A stretch of DNA of 64,000 bases, taken from the NCBI RefSeq assembly GCF_002892535.1, contig NZ_CP024847.1, forward strand, positions 2,356,001 through 2,420,000. Direction: 5' to 3'. A program made the position numbers and the translations under genes. The notes under the pieces are model-generated. The model worked only from the letters and a program-made list of their open reading frames with translations. It searched no databases and was not told the DNA's origin. Origin of the DNA: Aquella oligotrophica (GTDB lineage: Bacteria > Pseudomonadota > Gammaproteobacteria > Burkholderiales > UBA11063). Of the stretch, positions 49,843-61,175 are shown piece by piece (position 1 is the first letter of the stretch; every line of letters starts with the position of its first letter).

Positions 49843-52662
49843 TTACAAAGGGTTACTTACCGAAATTTTTATAGTATTTGATGTTTTAGAATTAGGAATA
49901 CTAATTGTCCCATAAATATTGGCAACGCCAACGCTATTTGCAGCTCTAAATTTCCCTGTCACTGGATCTATCAAGGTAATTAACTGCTCATTATCATTGT
50001 GCCAATTTATTTCATGAGTTACGTCTTGGCTAGTATTGCTTTGGTTATCAAAAACAGCTGTTGCCTTAATATAAAAATTGTTTAACGACCGAATTGTCCC
50101 AGTTATTGGATTACCAGAAAGATCCGTGGCTTTAATGTCAAGGCTTTTAATTGTTGTTTGTGGTAGAACAACTATATTCAAATTATTTGATTGCACATAA
50201 CTGCCATCATTAATCGAAGCAAAAACTCCAACTGTCACATCATTATCAGTTGAATTTGCATATAATAGTCCTTTATTTTTATCTATAGAAACATACTGAG
50301 TGTTATTACCAGTTTTCCACCAACTAGCTTGACTAGTTACATCTTCAGTAGTATTATTTGAAAGATGTGCTATTGCCTTTAGTGGTGATGTTGTTCCGGC
50401 AACTAAAGTTGAATCCACAATTGAAACCTCAAGGCTAGTTATACTCGCATGAATTACTTCTAGATTAAGCTCATTGGATGTGATTGAATTATAAGTAGCT
50501 TTAACCTTTATCTTTCCTGCTTTATTTGCCGTTACTAAACCATTAGCTGAAATATTGGCAATGCTGGAATCAGAGTTGATCCACGATACCTGAGTTGTTA
50601 CCGTTTGCGTTGTATTATCAGAATAAGTTGCAACCGCTGTTAATTGAGTTGTTAATCCCTGAATTATCGTTGATGACGCCGAGGTAATCGCTATACTCTT
50701 AATAGTTGCGGCACGGACTGTTACTCCTAGGCTATTCGATGTTACTCCAGCCAAGCTTGCTGTTACATTTGCTGAACCTGCTTTATTCGCATGCGCTACT
50801 CCGTCTGCTGTTACATTTACGATACTGCTATCGCTTGATGCCCAACTTACCTGATTGGTTAGCTGCTGACTACTGCCATCACTATAATGTCCAGTTGCGG
50901 TCAGTTTACCTGAAGTACCTGCTACTAAAGTATTATCATCAATATTAATCTCAATGCTTTTTAATACTGCGGCACGGACTGTTACGCTCAAGCTATTCGA
51001 TGTTACTCCAGCCAAGCTTGCTGTTACATTTGCTGAACCTGCTTTATTCGCATGCGCTACTCCGTCTGCTGTTACATTTACGATACTACTATCGCTTGAT
51101 GCCCAGCTTACCTGATTGGTTAGCTGCTGACTACTGCCATCACTATAATGTCCAGTTGCGGTCAGTTTACCTGAAGTACCTGCTACTAAAGTATTATCAT
51201 CAATATTGATCTCGATGCTTTTTAATATTGCGGCACGGACTGTTACTCCTAAGCTATTCGATGTTACTCCAGCCAAGCTTGCTGTTACATTTGCTGAACC
51301 TGCTTTATTCGCATGAGCCACTCCGTCTGCTGTTACATTTACGATACTACTATCGCTTGATGCCCAGCTTACCTGATTGGTTAGCTGCTGACTACTGCCA
51401 TCACTATAATGTCCAGTTGCGGTCAGTTTACCTGAAGTACCTGCTACTAAAGTATTATCATCAATATTAATCTCAATGCTTTTTAATATTGCGGCACGGA
51501 CTGTTACGCTCAAGCTATTCGATGTTACTCCAGCCAAGCTTGCTGTTACATTTGCTGAACCTGCTTTATTCGCATGAGCCACTCCGTCTGCTGTTACATT
51601 TACGATACTGCTATCGCTTGATGCCCAGCTTACCTGATTGGTTAGCTGCTGACTACTGCCATCACTATAATGTCCAGTTGCGGTCAGTTTACCTGAAGTA
51701 CCTGCTACTAAAGTATTATCATCAATATTAATCTCAATGCTTTTTAATACTGCGGCACGGACTGTTAGTCCTAGGCTATTCGATGTTACTCCAGCCAAGC
51801 TTGCTGTTACATTTGCTGAACCTGCTTTATTCGCATGAGCCACTCCGTCTGCTGTTACATTTACGATACTGCTATCGCTTGATGCCCAACTTACCTGATT
51901 GGTTAGCTGCTGACTACTGCCATCACTATAATGTCCAGTTGCGGTCAGTTTACCTGAAGTACCTGCTACTAAAGTATTATCATCAATATTAATCTCAATG
52001 CTTTTTAATGAAATATCCTTAACTATAACAGACAAGCTATTAGAGCTTATCGAATCCATAGACGCGCTTACGCTAGCACTTCCAGCAGTCAAAGCACTTG
52101 CGTTACCATTACTCCCAACGGATAGAATAGAACTATCGCTAGCTATCCAAGTAACACTATTAGTTAGATCAAGACTACTACCATCAGAGTAGGAGCCCAT
52201 TGCCTTAAACTGGATGCTAGCATTCTTGGCTACCTCCAAAGTTCCTTCTGAATTAATAACGATCGAATTTAATCTAACATCCAGAGCTTTGACTGAAATA
52301 GCCAAAGGTTCGGATATTTTATCAGCCAAAGAAGCCGTAATAATCACAGGTGCTGATTTAAGAGTAGAATGTAGCGTAGTAATCATCCCAGAATCATCAA
52401 TACGAATAGCATCCCCAGATACTCCCCACTTAACTAAAGAGGTAATATCTTTACGAATACCATTAGTATAAACGCCTGTTGCTATCATTTGCACCGAGAC
52501 ACCGACGGGTAAACTTGTTGCTGCGGAAGAGCTTATCTCAATTGAACTTAGCACTTCCGGATTAACTGGATCATTATTAGCAGAGGAGCCTCCACCGCCA
52601 TTGCCACCATTACATGCCACAAAAAACAGGACACTAATAAAGATAAATATTTTTTTTAACAT
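49843..52662 (-). CDS. Big_2 (Ig-like) repeat lipoprotein
   Basis: A protein of about 939 aa with a lipobox (FFVAC) and GGNGGGG linker, started at MLKKIFIFISV (52660-52662). It is built of about nine Big_2 bacterial Ig-like domains of roughly 87 residues with the typical ending SIVNVTADGVAHANKAGSAN and VTASLAGVTSNSL. Five central domains are nearly identical at both protein and DNA level. The outer ones have diverged. Such tandem Ig-like stalks hold adhesive tips in intimins, invasins and many surface proteins. Here no obvious head domain follows the repeats. Confidence 0.88.
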   Translation of the reverse strand: MLKKIFIFISVLFFVACNGGNGGGGSSANNDPVNPEVLSSIEISSSAATSLPVGVSVQMIATGVYTNGIRKDITSLVKWGVSGDAIRIDDSGMITTLHSTLKSAPVIITASLADKISEPLAISVKALDVRLNSIVINSEGTLEVAKNASIQFKAMGSYSDGSSLDLTNSVTWIASDSSILSVGSNGNASALTAGSASVSASMDSISSNSLSVIVKDISLKSIEINIDDNTLVAGTSGKLTATGHYSDGSSQQLTNQVSWASSDSSIVNVTADGVAHANKAGSANVTASLAGVTSNSLGLTVRAAVLKSIEINIDDNTLVAGTSGKLTATGHYSDGSSQQLTNQVSWASSDSSIVNVTADGVAHANKAGSANVTASLAGVTSNSLSVTVRAAILKSIEINIDDNTLVAGTSGKLTATGHYSDGSSQQLTNQVSWASSDSSIVNVTADGVAHANKAGSANVTASLAGVTSNSLGVTVRAAILKSIEINIDDNTLVAGTSGKLTATGHYSDGSSQQLTNQVSWASSDSSIVNVTADGVAHANKAGSANVTASLAGVTSNSLSVTVRAAVLKSIEINIDDNTLVAGTSGKLTATGHYSDGSSQQLTNQVSWASSDSSIVNVTADGVAHANKAGSANVTASLAGVTSNSLGVTVRAATIKSIAITSASSTIIQGLTTQLTAVATYSDNTTQTVTTQVSWINSDSSIANISANGLVTANKAGKIKVKATYNSITSNELNLEVIHASITSLEVSIVDSTLVAGTTSPLKAIAHLSNNTTEDVTSQASWWKTGNNTQYVSIDKNKGLLYANSTDNDVTVGVFASINDGSYVQSNNLNIVVLPQTTIKSLDIKATDLSGNPITGTIRSLNNFYIKATAVFDNQSNTSQDVTHEINWHNDNEQLITLIDPVTGKFRAANSVGVANIYGTISIPNSKTSNTIKISVSNPL
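50707..52011 (-). repeat. Five tandem 261-bp repeats inside the Big_2 gene
   Basis: Five copies of a 261-bp unit (87 codons, one Big_2 domain) lie head-to-tail, recognisable on the plus strand by GCGGCACGGACTGTTA every 261 bp from about 50707. Copies differ at only a few bases, such as ACTCCTAAG versus ACGCTCAAG near the unit boundary. The period is a multiple of three, so gain or loss of units keeps the frame. On the plus strand the repeats also give false open frames at the same period. Confidence 0.95.
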
Positions 52663-52720
52663 ATACTTATAACCTATAATAAACAATAAACGCAGATAAA
52701 CTGATTTATAAAAAACAACA

Positions 52721-54981: not shown

Positions 54982-55117
54982 CTCTTTCATAACCCATTAT
55001 TTCGCTCTTAGACTAGGAATAAAGACTTTGAAAAACGGAATGTACACGTAAGTACATGAGTATCACAGAAGTCTTTATGACAACGCATTAGAGTTAAAGA
55101 AGAAGGTTAGGAAAGAG
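54982..55117. repeat. Family-A repeat, full copy in a leader region
   Basis: This is close in sequence to the 28190-28332 copy: terminal CTCTTTC/GAAAGAG inverted repeat, inner AATAAAGACTT/AAGTCTTTAT, and an ATGTAC...GTACAT core. It begins a few bases downstream of the P5 -10 element, so the transcript of the 54568 gene would contain the whole element as a foldable 5' leader. Confidence 0.75.
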
Positions 55118-55351: not shown

Positions 55352-55915
55352 CTACTGTCCACCGCGGACAGGCCAAACATAGTAGTTGAGAGTCACGTCG
55401 AGCGAACCACTGAGACCGCTATTCATATTGACGCCCCAGGCACCATTACCACCCGGAGTAGACGACCAATAGTAGTAGGAACGCACATTACTAAATCCCG
55501 CTGAAATTAGCCAAGTTGCCTGATTAGCATTGGCATAGTTAAACAAGCTTAAAAGTTCTTTTTGCTTTGGCAAGCGCCAGTCACTATATCCACATAGATG
55601 GTAGCCAGTAGCACCACTATTGGTATTCATGGCATCAATAGCCTCCTGTGCAGGATAAGTATTAGGATTAGCAGATGTATCCTGCCATTTTTTTAACCCG
55701 AATAAGTTAGCATCCTTTGCCCACATTAGCCCGGTTAATTTATCGGTTACACAGTCACCACTTACTACGAAGCGGGTAGTTGGCCATTCTTTACCGGCAC
55801 CTGCTGTTGCGGTATTACCTGGTCCTGTTTTTGCCACTTCAGCAATATTCGCCGCACTAGCTAAGCCACATAGGCTAGCTAATAGTAGGCCTAATTTAAT
55901 TGTTTTATATTTCAT
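55352..55915 (-). CDS. DGR target A: secreted DUF1566/Lcl-domain protein with variable C-terminus
   Basis: This 187-aa protein has a signal peptide (LGLLLASLCGLASA) and one DUF1566/Lcl domain of the C-type-lectin fold. Landmarks are TDKLTGLMWAKDANLFGLKK, YHLCGYSDWRLPKQKELLSL, YYWSSTPGGNGAW and VWPVRGGQ at the end. The last about 45 residues are the DGR variable region; residues at template adenine positions read R,S,Y,Y, then G, S, L, L, L, Y. I start at MKYKTIKLGL (55913-55915), with AAGGAG just upstream; a frame to 55960 adds non-signal residues. It has no membrane anchor or lipobox, so the product is probably periplasmic or secreted. Target B shares the same domain nearly identically. Confidence 0.92.
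   Translation of the reverse strand: MKYKTIKLGLLLASLCGLASAANIAEVAKTGPGNTATAGAGKEWPTTRFVVSGDCVTDKLTGLMWAKDANLFGLKKWQDTSANPNTYPAQEAIDAMNTNSGATGYHLCGYSDWRLPKQKELLSLFNYANANQATWLISAGFSNVRSYYYWSSTPGGNGAWGVNMNSGLSGSLDVTLNYYVWPVRGGQ
55355..55490 (-). repeat. DGR variable repeat VR1 with terminal hairpin
   Basis: Aligned to the template (56559-56690), 14 template adenines (coding strand) are replaced and only one other position differs (template base 56681). At its 3' end lies an inverted repeat CTGTCC-GCGGT-GGACAG (55355-55371), a 6-bp stem with 5-base loop that includes the stop-proximal codons. This is the expected place of the initiation-of-mutagenic-homing element. The template has no such stem because TCCG is missing. 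Confidence 0.92.
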
Positions 55916-55990
55916 TATTACTCCTTGTGATTTATATTTACTATTAATTTTGAATAACATAATGACTTACTGCCTCTCGTTCCTTTATCC

Positions 55991-56006
55991 GGCAATAGCT
56001 ATTGCC
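55991..56006. promoter_or_regulatory. Perfect 16-bp palindrome upstream of DGR target A
   Basis: GGCAATAGCTATTGCC is a perfect palindrome about 75 bp before the target A start codon. A related block, GGCAATTGCTGTTAAGC, lies about 40 bp further upstream on the same strand. It may be an operator or a small hairpin in the leader. No P1-P8 type promoter is found in front of target A. Confidence 0.45.
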
Positions 56007-56086
56007 TGTTTCTTTTACGATTAATACGCTATATCCATTGCTTAACAGCAATTGCCTATAGTATGCTTCTTTCCGTAGAAAGGAAA

Positions 56087-56533
56087 ACTATAAATCATAT
56101 TCTTATCAATATTGATAAAAAAGCCCGGTATGTCAAACTGCAAATAATATACAGACTAAGCTTTTCCATTTAATCTATCCACTGCCCCATGAGTACCTTT
56201 ATTTACCCGACAAGCATAGCTATCATGAATGAAGAGCGGTTCAAATATTTTAGTTAGCCGCTCTATCAATACATGATGTACCACCCGATCCCTAAAATCA
56301 GCTGCGATGATCTCGCGGAGCTTGGGTTTCTCAACCACAAAGCACACACAGCGGGATGGCTGGTAACTTTTATTTTGCAGCTCAGTACTTAAATTAAGTA
56401 GATTAACTTCGGCAGCCAATTCAAATTTAAGCGCATTGATAGTGCCACGCTTACGCTTGCGGCACTCCAAATAACGCTGATACAAATTGGCAAATGAAAA
56501 AATATATTCTTCCATAGCCTGATACCCTATCAT
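56087..56533 (-). pseudogene. DGR reverse transcriptase, truncated relic
   Basis: The N-terminal part of a DGR reverse transcriptase is clear: FANLYQRYLECRKRKRGTIN, LNLSTELQNKSYQPSRCVCF, VEKPKLREIIAADFRDRVVH and FIHDSYACRVNKGTHGAVDR. These match the fingers and motifs 1-2 of the Bordetella-type enzymes. An in-frame TAG (56156-56158) interrupts it. The same frame then continues with motif A, YYLQFDIPGFFINIDKNMIY, including the first catalytic Asp (56132-56134), and is lost after 56087. The YxDD palm motif, thumb and about 230 further residues are absent. It cannot be catalytically active as it stands. Confidence 0.9.
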
Positions 56534-56558
56534 TCTACTTATTTAAGTAATACTATCA

Positions 56559-56690
56559 CTATCCACCGCAGGCCAAACATAGTTGTTGTTAGTCACGTCG
56601 TTCGAACCACTGTTACCGTTATTCATATTGACGTTCCAGGCACCATTACCACCCGGAGTAGACGACCAATAGTTGTTGGTCTGCACATTA
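56559..56690 (-). repeat. DGR template repeat (TR)
   Basis: This 132-bp non-coding repeat lies between the avd and RT relics. In the frame of the targets it reads NVQTNNYWSSTPGGNGAWNV, then NMNNGNSGSNDVTNNNYVW. It is full of AAC codons at just the positions that differ in the targets, the hallmark of a DGR template. Thirty-five of its 120 central bases are coding-strand adenines. Its 3' end reads GGCCTGCGGTGGATAG and lacks the TCCG that makes the hairpin in the targets. No ribosome-binding site or continuous gene covers it. Confidence 0.93.
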
Positions 56691-56865
56691 ACTAGCCAAC
56701 TTTATTTCACTATTCCACCCTTTCTACCAGCAGGAATAGTTAGCTTTTTATACCATCGTCCACCCAAAAGCAGCCAATGGTGTAGCTAGCGCACAGTGAT
56801 AAAACTCGGCACTCCCATAAAGACTATCCTTTATAGTTCTCGCCGTTACACCCATGAACCATACT

Positions 56866-57258
56866 CAAGTACGGCTCACCGGAGTAATCTTTCGATAACT
56901 TTCGATACTTTTAATCCATCCCTCATTCTGACGAGCTAAAAGTATCGTCTCCTCCATCGCATAGACAAATGAATTAAGATTCCTAAATGCACCGATTTCC
57001 TTACATATTCGCATACAGACTTTTAATATCTCTATTTTTAATCTAAACTTTTACTCGCAGTATTTGAATCGTGGACGCGAAGCATTGCTATTAAAAGCGA
57101 CGACATGTACATAACAGTACATTAGGAGCTTTTTATAAAATGCGCCAAAGTCCAGGGTTCAAAGACAATGAGTAGCTAAAGTGACAAACAACTTTCTCTA
57201 GATAAACACATAAAGCCAGAGCTTTCTGATAGATTGGCAAATTCTCATAATACGCCAT
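56866..57258 (-). pseudogene. DGR accessory protein gene avd, split by a palindromic element
   Basis: The N-terminal fragment (57258 to about 57165) reads MAYYENLPIYQKALALCVYL then EKVVCHFS, after an AGGAG ribosome-binding site. The C-terminal fragment (57050-56866) reads FRLKIEILKVCMRICKEIGA, FRNLNSFVYAMEETILLARQ and NEGWIKS. These match the first and last helices of Avd, the four-helix pentamer that works with the DGR reverse transcriptase and template RNA. Roughly 45 middle residues are replaced by a palindrome of about 100 bp, and the frames are out of register. The position, just before the template, is the standard avd site. Confidence 0.85.
57063..57163. mobile_element. Family-B palindromic element inserted in avd
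   Basis: This 101-bp stretch has imperfect inverted ends (TTTGAATCGTGGAC versus TTTGAACCCTGGAC, 12 of 14). The core AAGCGACGACATGTACATA and AGGAGCTTTT is shared with the element at 25705-25794. It lies exactly where avd coding similarity breaks off. No clear target-site duplication is seen. The missing avd middle implies deletion together with or after insertion. Confidence 0.6.
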
Positions 57259-57338
57259 TTTTATCTCCTCATCACTAGATAAAATTATCATTTTAGGCAG
57301 GTGCTACGCACCTGCAAATAATCAAATGATCAAATATC

Positions 57339-60300
57339 CTACTGTCCACCGCGGACTGGCCAAACATAGTTGAGGCTAGTCACGCCGGTCGAACCACTGC
57401 TACCGGCAAGCATATTGACGCGCCAGGCACCATTACCACCCGGAGTAGACGACCAATAGCCGCCGGCCTCCACATTACTAAATACCTGTGAATTTAGCCA
57501 AGTAGCTTGATTACCACTTGCGGCAGCATAATTAAGCAGGCTTAATAGTTCGTTTTGGGTTGGTAAGCGCCAGTCACTATGTCCACATAGCTGGTAGCCA
57601 GTAGCACCACTATTGGTATTCATGGCATCAATAGCCTCCTGTGCAGGATAAGTATTAGGATTAGCAGATGTATCCTGCCATCTTTTTGCCCCGAATAAGT
57701 TAGCATTCTTTGCCCACATTAGCCCGGTAAGATTATCGGTAATACAATTTGCTTCAGCTCCACTACCTACTGTAAAGCGCGTAGCTACAGTGCCATTAGT
57801 TCCCCAAGTGATACCAGTTCCTGCGGTTGCAGCATCTCCAGGCACGTCTGCCGCCAGATACACATACGGAGCAGTTACCGTCCCAGTTATGCCACTATAT
57901 GTCTGTGGTGATGCATTGCCATTGATGGTTGCACTATTATCTGCTGATACCGTAAACCCGATACCTGAAGCACTACTAACGGTTATTTCATTACCGACGC
58001 TACTATTGCCAATATTTGCTGGATCCCAGAATGAATAATCACCACTACTCGTATTATATGGGGTAACAATAATTGTACAGCTAGGATTAGTGCTTGAATT
58101 AAGATTACAGGTACTGGATGAAAGTGTAGCACCAAATATATCACTAGTAAAACCACTAAACGTAACTGTACTAGTACCGCCAGTTATCGTTGCAGTGAAA
58201 GAATAGGGGTTACCCATCACTGTTGACCAGTTAGCTACTGGAGTAATTGTAATTGCAGGTGCAGGTGGAGCTTGTACCGTCACATAAGTTAGATTGCTGC
58301 CTACAGCCTGACTAGTCCCTGACGGATTTGCTTGGTCTGTCCAGTTCTCCGTCATTACATTCTGATTGAAGTTATTAGTTCCTACCGTTCCGCTATTGAT
58401 TGTGTACTCTACGGTACAGGTATTGCTGCCTGTATTCGGTAAATTAGTGCCAGTTGAAGATGCACATGTACCACCACTTCTTGTATAGCCAGTAGTTAGC
58501 GTGCTGTTGGTTACGTAGAAGTCGGTTGCATCCTGAGTCCCACTATTCGTGAAGGTATAGGTTAGCGTAGCAGCGGTATTAGTATTTACCACATATGGAT
58601 TACCTGAAGTTCCTGCCCCAGTGAAGCCACTAGCTGTTGGTCCACTGATATTGATACTGGCTGCTGATGCTGATACTGAAACCCCACTTAGGCTACTTGT
58701 CGCAGCTGTCGATACCTGTCCGTTATATGAATAGTTGGCATTTAATACTGCGCTTGCATTTGCTACTGCTGTGGCTGTTGGTCCAAATTTCACATTTACC
58801 TTACAGCTTGCTCCTGCTGCTAGGGAGGTGCTACATTGATCCTGTTCTGCGATACCGGTATTATTCAGAGTAAACATAGTATTATTCGTACCTGTAATTG
58901 TACGGGTAAAACTCGTACCATCGGTGGCTATATCACCACTATTTGTTATCGTAAACTCTACATCTGCACTTGCATCTGTATTATTATTAACTATACTACC
59001 AAAGTTATGGCTAGATGGGCTTACGCTCAGGCTTGCTGTTGACTGCGTTACCTGATAACTAACCGCTGCTGTTGTCGGACTTGGTGCCGGAGTTGCTCCA
59101 TTGTAGTTATAGGCAATACTGATATTATCTGTTCCCTGTGAGGTTGCTGTTGAATTATTATAAGTTACCGTTACCGTACAGCTACTTCCCGGCTGGAGCG
59201 TGTTACTGATCGTTGCCGGGCTGGTAGGATTGGTTACAGCACATGCTGTAGCTGGGTCAGCTCCATTACTGATGGTGAAATTAGCTGGTAAGGTGAATAT
59301 TATTGCAGTCTCATCAGTATCTCCAGTATTAGTCAGTGTTAGCTGTCTAGTGGTGCTAGGACTTGCCGTTGTTACATAAAACTGGCTATCTGGATTAATT
59401 GCTGCGGTTAATCCGGCTCTTGGCGCTGGAGGTGGCGGCGGTGGCGTAGGCGGTGTAGGCGGCGGTGTCGGACTTGGACTCGGTGCTGGATTTACATTCT
59501 GATCAACTATACCACTCGTGACAGTTTGTTCCTGTCCATTATTGTATGATAAGCTTATATTTCCACTTGTCCCAGCTATCTCTGGATTCTTTAATCTTAA
59601 TACTGCGCTTGTTATTCCACCGCTTGCCAGACTTGTTGGATTAAACACTATCTCGATATTCGGATTATTGGCTGTCAGCTCTTGTAACTGTGCCATTGCA
59701 TCCCCGGTATTTACAAAGCTGATTGTCTGCTCCGGACTGCTTGATGTTAGGTATACCGCTGATGGCAGCATCTCCGCTATCCCGATATTCTCTTTTGTCG
59801 TCAGCGTACTACTTGTTGTCGCTGTCGATACTACTGTTGTTTGTCCATTATTGACTTGCTGGGTTTGAACTTTTATTGTTTGGCTGAGATTATTCCCTGA
59901 TGGAGCTGGCAATAATACACTAAATGTCTTACCTTGGGTGTAGCTACCACTTCCTGCGATTAGCTGCTGATTTGGTATCGGGTTATTATTGCTATCTACC
60001 AATACTACATTATTGAAGCTACCTGCATTTGCTGAAGCTACCAGTCCACTCACCAAGATATATGGTGTACCATTAATCACCGTATGGTAGTAACTTAGCG
60101 TTACTCCATCCGCTCCGCTTAAGCTATTATACGCTGCCTGTTCTATTCCGCTATACGCAACATTCTTCACCGTATCTGCTTTTAATGATCTTCCAAGCTT
60201 ACTTAGTAAGCTAGTACCACTATTATCCGCACTTACTCCAATGCTACCAGCTACTGTTCCAGCTGGAATTGTTACTTTTATATTACACTGGCTATACGCT

Positions 60301-60629
60301 GCTACTACAGCACACTCAGCTGCACTTGCCGGATCTATCTCTGCTGATGTTCCACTACCAGTTTGGTAGTTTAGTCTATAGCTAAGGTTCTTTACTGCAC
60401 TTCCAGTTGGGTTATTGATTACTATATAGCCTGCTCCGCTTTCGGATGGTAAGCTATAGATTGTTTTTGGGGCTACCAGCTGTAAGCTGCTAACATCACC
60501 ATTTCCGCCATTATTGTTACCATTACTTCCGCCACCACTATTTGAACAAGCGGTTGCTAGTGCTGAAGTGAGTAATAGTGATACTATCTGTTTCAGGGAT
60601 AGTTTTTTATCTAATTGCTGTAGGTTCAT
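57339..60629 (-). CDS. DGR target B: large lipoprotein with C-terminal variable DUF1566/Lcl domain
   Basis: This 1096-aa protein starts at MNLQQLDKKLSLKQIVSLLL (60627-60629); an ATG 12 codons upstream overlaps the -10 of P6. The lipobox is SALATAC, then an Asn/Gly linker. Beta-sandwich repeats with CxxxLxxGxxCxVxVxY motifs (CSTSLAAGASCKVNVKFGP) resemble those of the 38415 and 41269 lipoproteins. A proline-rich hinge lies near residue 395. The last about 150 residues are a DUF1566/Lcl domain (LTGLMWAKNANLFGAKRW, CGHSDWRLPTQNELLSL, YWSSTPGGNGAW). Its end is diversified by the DGR (E,A,G,G, then R, L, A, S, T, G, S, L). It is a probable outer-membrane-anchored display protein. Confidence 0.93.
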   Translation of the reverse strand: MNLQQLDKKLSLKQIVSLLLTSALATACSNSGGGSNGNNNGGNGDVSSLQLVAPKTIYSLPSESGAGYIVINNPTGSAVKNLSYRLNYQTGSGTSAEIDPASAAECAVVAAYSQCNIKVTIPAGTVAGSIGVSADNSGTSLLSKLGRSLKADTVKNVAYSGIEQAAYNSLSGADGVTLSYYHTVINGTPYILVSGLVASANAGSFNNVVLVDSNNNPIPNQQLIAGSGSYTQGKTFSVLLPAPSGNNLSQTIKVQTQQVNNGQTTVVSTATTSSTLTTKENIGIAEMLPSAVYLTSSSPEQTISFVNTGDAMAQLQELTANNPNIEIVFNPTSLASGGITSAVLRLKNPEIAGTSGNISLSYNNGQEQTVTSGIVDQNVNPAPSPSPTPPPTPPTPPPPPPAPRAGLTAAINPDSQFYVTTASPSTTRQLTLTNTGDTDETAIIFTLPANFTISNGADPATACAVTNPTSPATISNTLQPGSSCTVTVTYNNSTATSQGTDNISIAYNYNGATPAPSPTTAAVSYQVTQSTASLSVSPSSHNFGSIVNNNTDASADVEFTITNSGDIATDGTSFTRTITGTNNTMFTLNNTGIAEQDQCSTSLAAGASCKVNVKFGPTATAVANASAVLNANYSYNGQVSTAATSSLSGVSVSASAASINISGPTASGFTGAGTSGNPYVVNTNTAATLTYTFTNSGTQDATDFYVTNSTLTTGYTRSGGTCASSTGTNLPNTGSNTCTVEYTINSGTVGTNNFNQNVMTENWTDQANPSGTSQAVGSNLTYVTVQAPPAPAITITPVANWSTVMGNPYSFTATITGGTSTVTFSGFTSDIFGATLSSSTCNLNSSTNPSCTIIVTPYNTSSGDYSFWDPANIGNSSVGNEITVSSASGIGFTVSADNSATINGNASPQTYSGITGTVTAPYVYLAADVPGDAATAGTGITWGTNGTVATRFTVGSGAEANCITDNLTGLMWAKNANLFGAKRWQDTSANPNTYPAQEAIDAMNTNSGATGYQLCGHSDWRLPTQNELLSLLNYAAASGNQATWLNSQVFSNVEAGGYWSSTPGGNGAWRVNMLAGSSGSTGVTSLNYVWPVRGGQ
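57342..57477 (-). repeat. DGR variable repeat VR2 with terminal hairpin
   Basis: Compared with the template, 17 of 35 adenines differ, and only one other position does (template base 56683). The 3' end carries GTCC-GCGGT-GGAC (57344-57356), a 4-bp stem that is weaker than in VR1 because of one base change. VR1 and VR2 share the invariant scaffold but almost none of the substituted residues, which indicates independent mutagenic homing events. Confidence 0.92.
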
Positions 60630-60662
60630 TTTATTATTTCCCGTTATGACTTTTTTAACGAG

Positions 60663-60736
60663 CATATAATATCAGCCCCCCCGCACAGTCTATAGCGATT
60701 TATAGAACTAAACCCACGCTTTATTTCTATTTTTAG
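60663..60736 (-). promoter_or_regulatory. Two-half-site promoter P6 (DGR target B), long spacing
   Basis: On the minus strand: CTAAAAATAG (60727-60736) and CTATAAATCG (60696-60705), 31 bp apart instead of 21-22, then CTATAG. TATATG at 60663-60668 lies exactly 27 bp after the second half-site. The extra 10 bp is one helical turn. In the rest of the 552-bp gap to 61181 I find only a family-A repeat fragment. Confidence 0.7.
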
Positions 60737-61091
60737 ATAGCAATAAAATCAGGCACATTTGATTAATTATCATATAGCGAATAATTCCTGATTAGTAGTC
60801 TATCTCATAGTATATTGATACATCTAAGATACACCCTATAGACTCTCACGGAATTGAGCATCGAAAACCGCTATAAAACCATAGCCAACTAAAATAGACG
60901 GCATCAGCCGAAATTCAGCTACTTTTTACTCAAATCACTAAATCTTTTTTAAAGTTTTTTGCTGATTTTTGTAGATATAATGCTACAAAAGCATAAGGTG
61001 ATTGCTGACATGTCTTAGCATTTGATGACGAGTGAGCAATAGAAATTTTAAGTATCCTGAATCAAGCAAGATACTAACTAAATAGAAAAAG

Positions 61092-61175
61092 AGTCAAGAT
61101 GTGACAGAAGTACATGAGTATCACAGAAGTCTTTATGACAACGCAATAGAGTTATAGAAGAAGGTTAGGAAAGAG
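61092..61175 (+). repeat. Family-A repeat, right half
   Basis: It contains GTACATGAGTATCACAGAAG, TCTTTATGACAACGC and AGAAGGTTAGGAAAGAG, the right half of the element, ending just before the methyltransferase stop. The left half is replaced by unrelated sequence. Confidence 0.65.

Follow-up and report, generated by a model that had tools for sequence, protein, structure and literature searches.

The window analysed here, a 64,000-nt stretch at positions 2,356,001–2,420,000 of the single 2,820,660-bp contig of a 100% complete genome, contains a cassette whose features all lie on the minus strand and follow, from the target side, the order long target, avd, template repeat (TR), reverse transcriptase (RT) and short target. 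The genome is the chromosome of Aquella oligotrophica P08T, which was sequenced by PacBio (PMC6612550). The open reading frame of the long target (57339..60665) encodes 1108 residues with a lipoprotein-like start and a C-terminal Lcl_C domain in Pfam (residues 974–1105, E = 4e-24), and that of the short target (55352..55960) encodes 202 residues with a signal-peptide-like start and an Lcl_C domain (Pfam, E = 1e-25). The structural model of the short target best matched the C-terminal domain of Legionella Lcl (8q4e, E = 4e-5), and the next matches were mainly C-type lectin-like chains with weak E-values. Both variable repeats (VRs) described below occupy the 3′ ends of these genes, whose Lcl_C domain has a C-type-lectin-type fold.

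Template repeat and adenine-confined differences

Alignment within the window revealed an ungapped 119-bp block present in three copies, one TR (56571–56689) and two VRs, belonging to the long (57358–57476) and the short target (55371–55489). Read in the target frame, the TR contains nine AAC and four AAT codons, and it lies in no intact gene. Of its 119 positions, 35 are adenine in the TR and 84 are not. In the long-gene VR, 17 of the 35 adenines and one of the 84 other positions (a C) are changed relative to the TR (Fisher p = 4e-10), and in the short-gene VR 14 of the 35 and one of the 84 (a G; Fisher p = 5e-8), the bias towards template adenines that characterizes diversity-generating retroelements (DGRs). 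Both non-adenine changes fall in one TR codon, CAG, which reads GAG and CGT in the VRs. Four nucleotides common to both VRs lie just outside the block and are missing from the TR. This adenine-confined pattern is the imprint of past mutagenic retrohoming at both VRs.

An earlier sequence-only reading had proposed a repeat copied at the 3′ ends of two genes ending in DUF1566/Lcl domains, with by-eye counts of 14 + 1 and 17 + 1 differences over 120 positions. The three-copy block and the Pfam Lcl_C domains at both C-termini agree with it, and its counts were correct to within one column; tabulated by template base, all but one of the substitutions at each VR fall on adenine, and they are not spread evenly over the four bases.

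A GC-rich hairpin, GCAGGTGC-GTA-GCACCTGC (57297..57315), lies downstream of the long target and is possibly a homing determinant or a terminator. Similar hairpins follow the other DGR-linked targets in the genus, and none follows the short target of the window. In phage BPP-1, a hairpin at the equivalent place is needed for efficient homing (PMC3240598). The loop of the long-target hairpin does not match the phage GRNA consensus, and any role assigned to the hairpin is presumptive. A short stem at the extreme end of the short-gene VR has no counterpart in the other VRs.

Remnants of avd and the reverse transcriptase

The accessory gene avd survives in the window as two pieces, and no intact copy accompanies them. 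An N-terminal remnant (57175..57258) corresponds to residues 1–28, with 68% identity to the intact avd of a second locus described below, and a C-terminal remnant in another frame (56899..57032) corresponds to approximately residues 71–114, with 55–74% identity to each of three intact avd proteins from other cassettes in the genus. The middle of the gene has been replaced by unrelated sequence. Insertion of a dispersed or mobile element was considered and rejected, since the intervening sequence occurs once in the genome. Between avd and the TR lies a conserved element, GAGTTTTATCACTGTGCGCT (56788..56807), which is kept in all four genus DGRs seen and is probably part of the template RNA, a role that we infer.

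The RT is likewise a pseudogene. Its N-terminal 125 residues (56156..56533) end at a TAG and share 68% identity with the RT of G014, another genome of the genus; the best match among solved structures is 8ub7, which we take to be the BPP-1 RT, of which only chain residues 10–121 are covered. The assignment of this remnant beside the TR to the DGR clade is based on these similarities. Motif A (FDIPGFFINIDK; 56102..56137) lies in frame behind the stop, and relative to the G014 RT a 21-nt deletion and the TAG immediately precede it. After motif A, the gene is absent until close to its end, where ~32 residues from the last part of a MutS-like C-terminal domain persist in another frame (55977..56073; tblastn match to residues 328–359 of the second locus's RT, E = 4e-7). 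No complete RT that includes both motif A and YxDD is present in the window, and we estimate from these alignments that ~310 residues, YxDD included, have been lost. The sequence-only reading had RT and avd flanking the TR in standard order: the order and the similarity hold, the latter as remnants, but both genes are pseudogenes, leaving the implied functional element unsupported. Its identification of a DGR is upheld by the anatomy, the adenine-specific TR/VR differences and the homology of the parts.

A second cassette and related loci

A second DGR with the same cassette plan lies 233 kb away (genome 2,177.9–2,183.7 kb) and comprises an intact avd, a TR, two adenine-diversified Lcl targets and a deleted RT. 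Its 124-residue avd product matches both NCBIfam Avd and Pfam bAvd, each below the cut-off. One of its VRs differs from the TR at 24 of 45 adenines vs. 2 of 86 other bases (p = 7e-12), and the other at 14 of 45 vs. 0 of 86 (p = 7e-8). Its RT, of 373 residues, bears an in-frame deletion of ~132 residues equivalent to G014 residues 31–162, motif A included, and aligns to residues 174–290 only of 8ub7. The C-terminus is a MutS_I domain (PF01624, E = 1e-8); tails of this type are the known DGR accessory domain MSL (PMC10053308). The long targets of the two loci are 100% identical over their first ~1.8 kb and 98% identical over the 360 bp upstream, and their tips differ (window 57339–61025). The shared 5′ parts point to recent gene conversion or duplication.

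Scanning the genome contigs with the long target returned four distant loci. Seven further Lcl_C loci occur in the genome, mostly with two domains, either as adjacent genes or as one fused gene, and TR, avd and RT are absent from all seven. In three other Lcl pairs the 3′ ends are 50–60% identical, vs. 83% and 79% for the target pairs of the two DGRs, and none of these three shows homogenization of the long and short genes.

Of 22 further genomes from the genus, many of them incomplete, only G014 and G001 yielded a related RT, and 12 have Lcl_C domains. G014 has the arrangement target–avd–TR–RT–target, and its RT retains motif A and YxDD; ahead of the MutS-like tail the reading frame shifts, either genuinely or through an error of assembly. 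Its VRs show the same adenine bias (21 of 49 vs. 4 of 82, and 18 of 49 vs. 2 of 82). In G001 a target is accompanied by avd and a TR, and the contig ends within the RT. In G002, a long/short Lcl pair without a DGR between its members is 76% identical over the last 140 nt vs. 52% upstream, which is compatible with homogenization by a DGR since lost. Across the genus, the loci range from fuller cassettes to broken ones and on to target-only pairs.

Inactivation and comparison with known systems

Taken together, the sequences make it very probable that a DGR diversified two Lcl-domain surface proteins here and was then inactivated. By analogy with the DGR family, TR RNA would have been reverse-transcribed by an error-prone RT together with Avd, with template adenines becoming random bases in the cDNA, and the cDNA would have taken the place of the 3′-terminal sequence in both the long lipoprotein-like gene and the short secreted gene. 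Later losses, visible in the sequence, have removed the catalytic core of the RT and the middle of avd and have left the short target without a hairpin. Because neither RT in the genome is complete, retrohoming should not occur, and the two variable tips should be frozen. The last retrohoming would have been recent, since the TR and VRs still differ almost solely at adenines. The VRs of the window could have been rewritten late, in trans, by the RT of the second locus before that RT was deleted; this is plausible because avd and RT in the window bear several lesions and the second locus bears one. Assembly error at both separate loci is unlikely.

Reshuffling of the tips by homologous recombination after the loss of both RTs is suggested by the long targets, whose 5′ parts are nearly identical across the two loci while their lectin tips differ, but we consider it improbable. 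If it occurs, a dead DGR family persists as a repertoire of recombining tips on a common stalk.

An RT could be supplied from outside the assembled genome, and the DGR would still be active if a complete enzyme acted in trans from a plasmid, a phage or an unassembled copy. The near absence of non-adenine changes from the TR and VRs would fit such activity, as would the intact avd and TR retained at the second locus. Against it, neither a complete DGR RT nor a third DGR RT emerged from three genome-wide searches, whose queries were RVT_1, the RT fragment of the window and the RT of G014. The only other long RT, of 312 residues at ~28.5 kb of the genome, was rejected as a source in trans, being a Drt9-like defence RT (PADLOC, E = 2e-132, positions 3–300 of 488). 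Searches of phages, plasmids and viral contigs with the G014 RT returned distant relatives only, those from plasmids and phages at <60% identity. We regard continued activity in trans as quite unlikely. Transposase frames adjoin the Drt9-like RT, and the same transposase lies beside the short target of another Lcl locus; the genome also carries a group II intron-like RT fragment in two short frames.

The two RT fragments align to 8ub7 residues 10–121 (window) and 174–290 (second locus) with little overlap, and together might be imagined to form a split enzyme; neither open frame includes motif A, which carries a catalytic aspartate and in the window lies behind the stop, and a split enzyme is extremely improbable. 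An equally negligible probability attaches to a reading without any DGR, in which the Lcl genes are simple paralogues and their adenine differences arose by chance or selection. It draws on the paralogy of the Lcl domains and their likeness upstream of the block (87% over ~290 bp between the long and short targets) and is already refuted by the adenine-bias counts. The TR adds a third copy that is non-genic and adjoins the remnants of avd and RT, the bias recurs at the second locus and in G014, and other Lcl pairs in the genome lack near-identical 3′ ends.

DGRs, Lcl/DUF1566 targets and inactivated DGRs have all been documented before, and the present locus, read as inactivated, is another case of the last. 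The DiGReF survey of 2012 described inactivated DGRs in Ruminococcus gnavus, Acaryochloris marina and Bacteroides sp. 9_1_42FAA, in which adenine-only TR/VR differences beside a broken RT were read as very recent inactivation (PMC3521204). The loci described here resemble them in combining a broken RT with TR and VRs whose differences are all, or almost all, at adenines, and the same argument from the near absence of non-adenine changes suggests recent loss (PMC3521204). In the survey the damage was done by a nonsense mutation, by an insertion element and by a frameshift, whereas here large internal deletions affect both DGRs of one genome, in addition to the broken avd.

The cassette shares with the Bordetella phage BPP-1 DGR the order target–avd–TR–RT, adenine-specific change and a C-terminal VR, and the BPP-1 RT (8ub7) is the best solved relative of the window RT. 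Unlike BPP-1, it is chromosomal and inactive, with two targets flanking the cassette, Lcl in place of Mtd and a MutS-like RT tail. DUF1566/Lcl is the commonest DGR target domain, and cases in which a single TR supplies several VRs have been described (PMC6642488); the target domain and TR:VR plan are the same here, but the machinery has been lost. Isolates of Treponema denticola without TR and RT have been reported (PMC4891356), in which, as here, target genes outlast the machinery. In contrast to those isolates, the TR is still present in the window, together with fragments of RT and avd, and the target-only stage is represented by the other Lcl pairs of the same genome.

An adenine-only TR/VR signature accompanied by RT and avd similarity is thus no proof of an active DGR. 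The strain is cultured and offers a natural background lacking a DGR RT with two TR/VR systems, useful for timing how the DGR signature fades.

Two further repeats were observed in the window. On either side of the DGR region, 68-bp intergenic copies (55050–55117 and 61108–61175) are 97% identical, and a 261-bp unit is repeated five times in tandem at 50685–52028, with 92–95% identity, inside the gene at 49843–52686.
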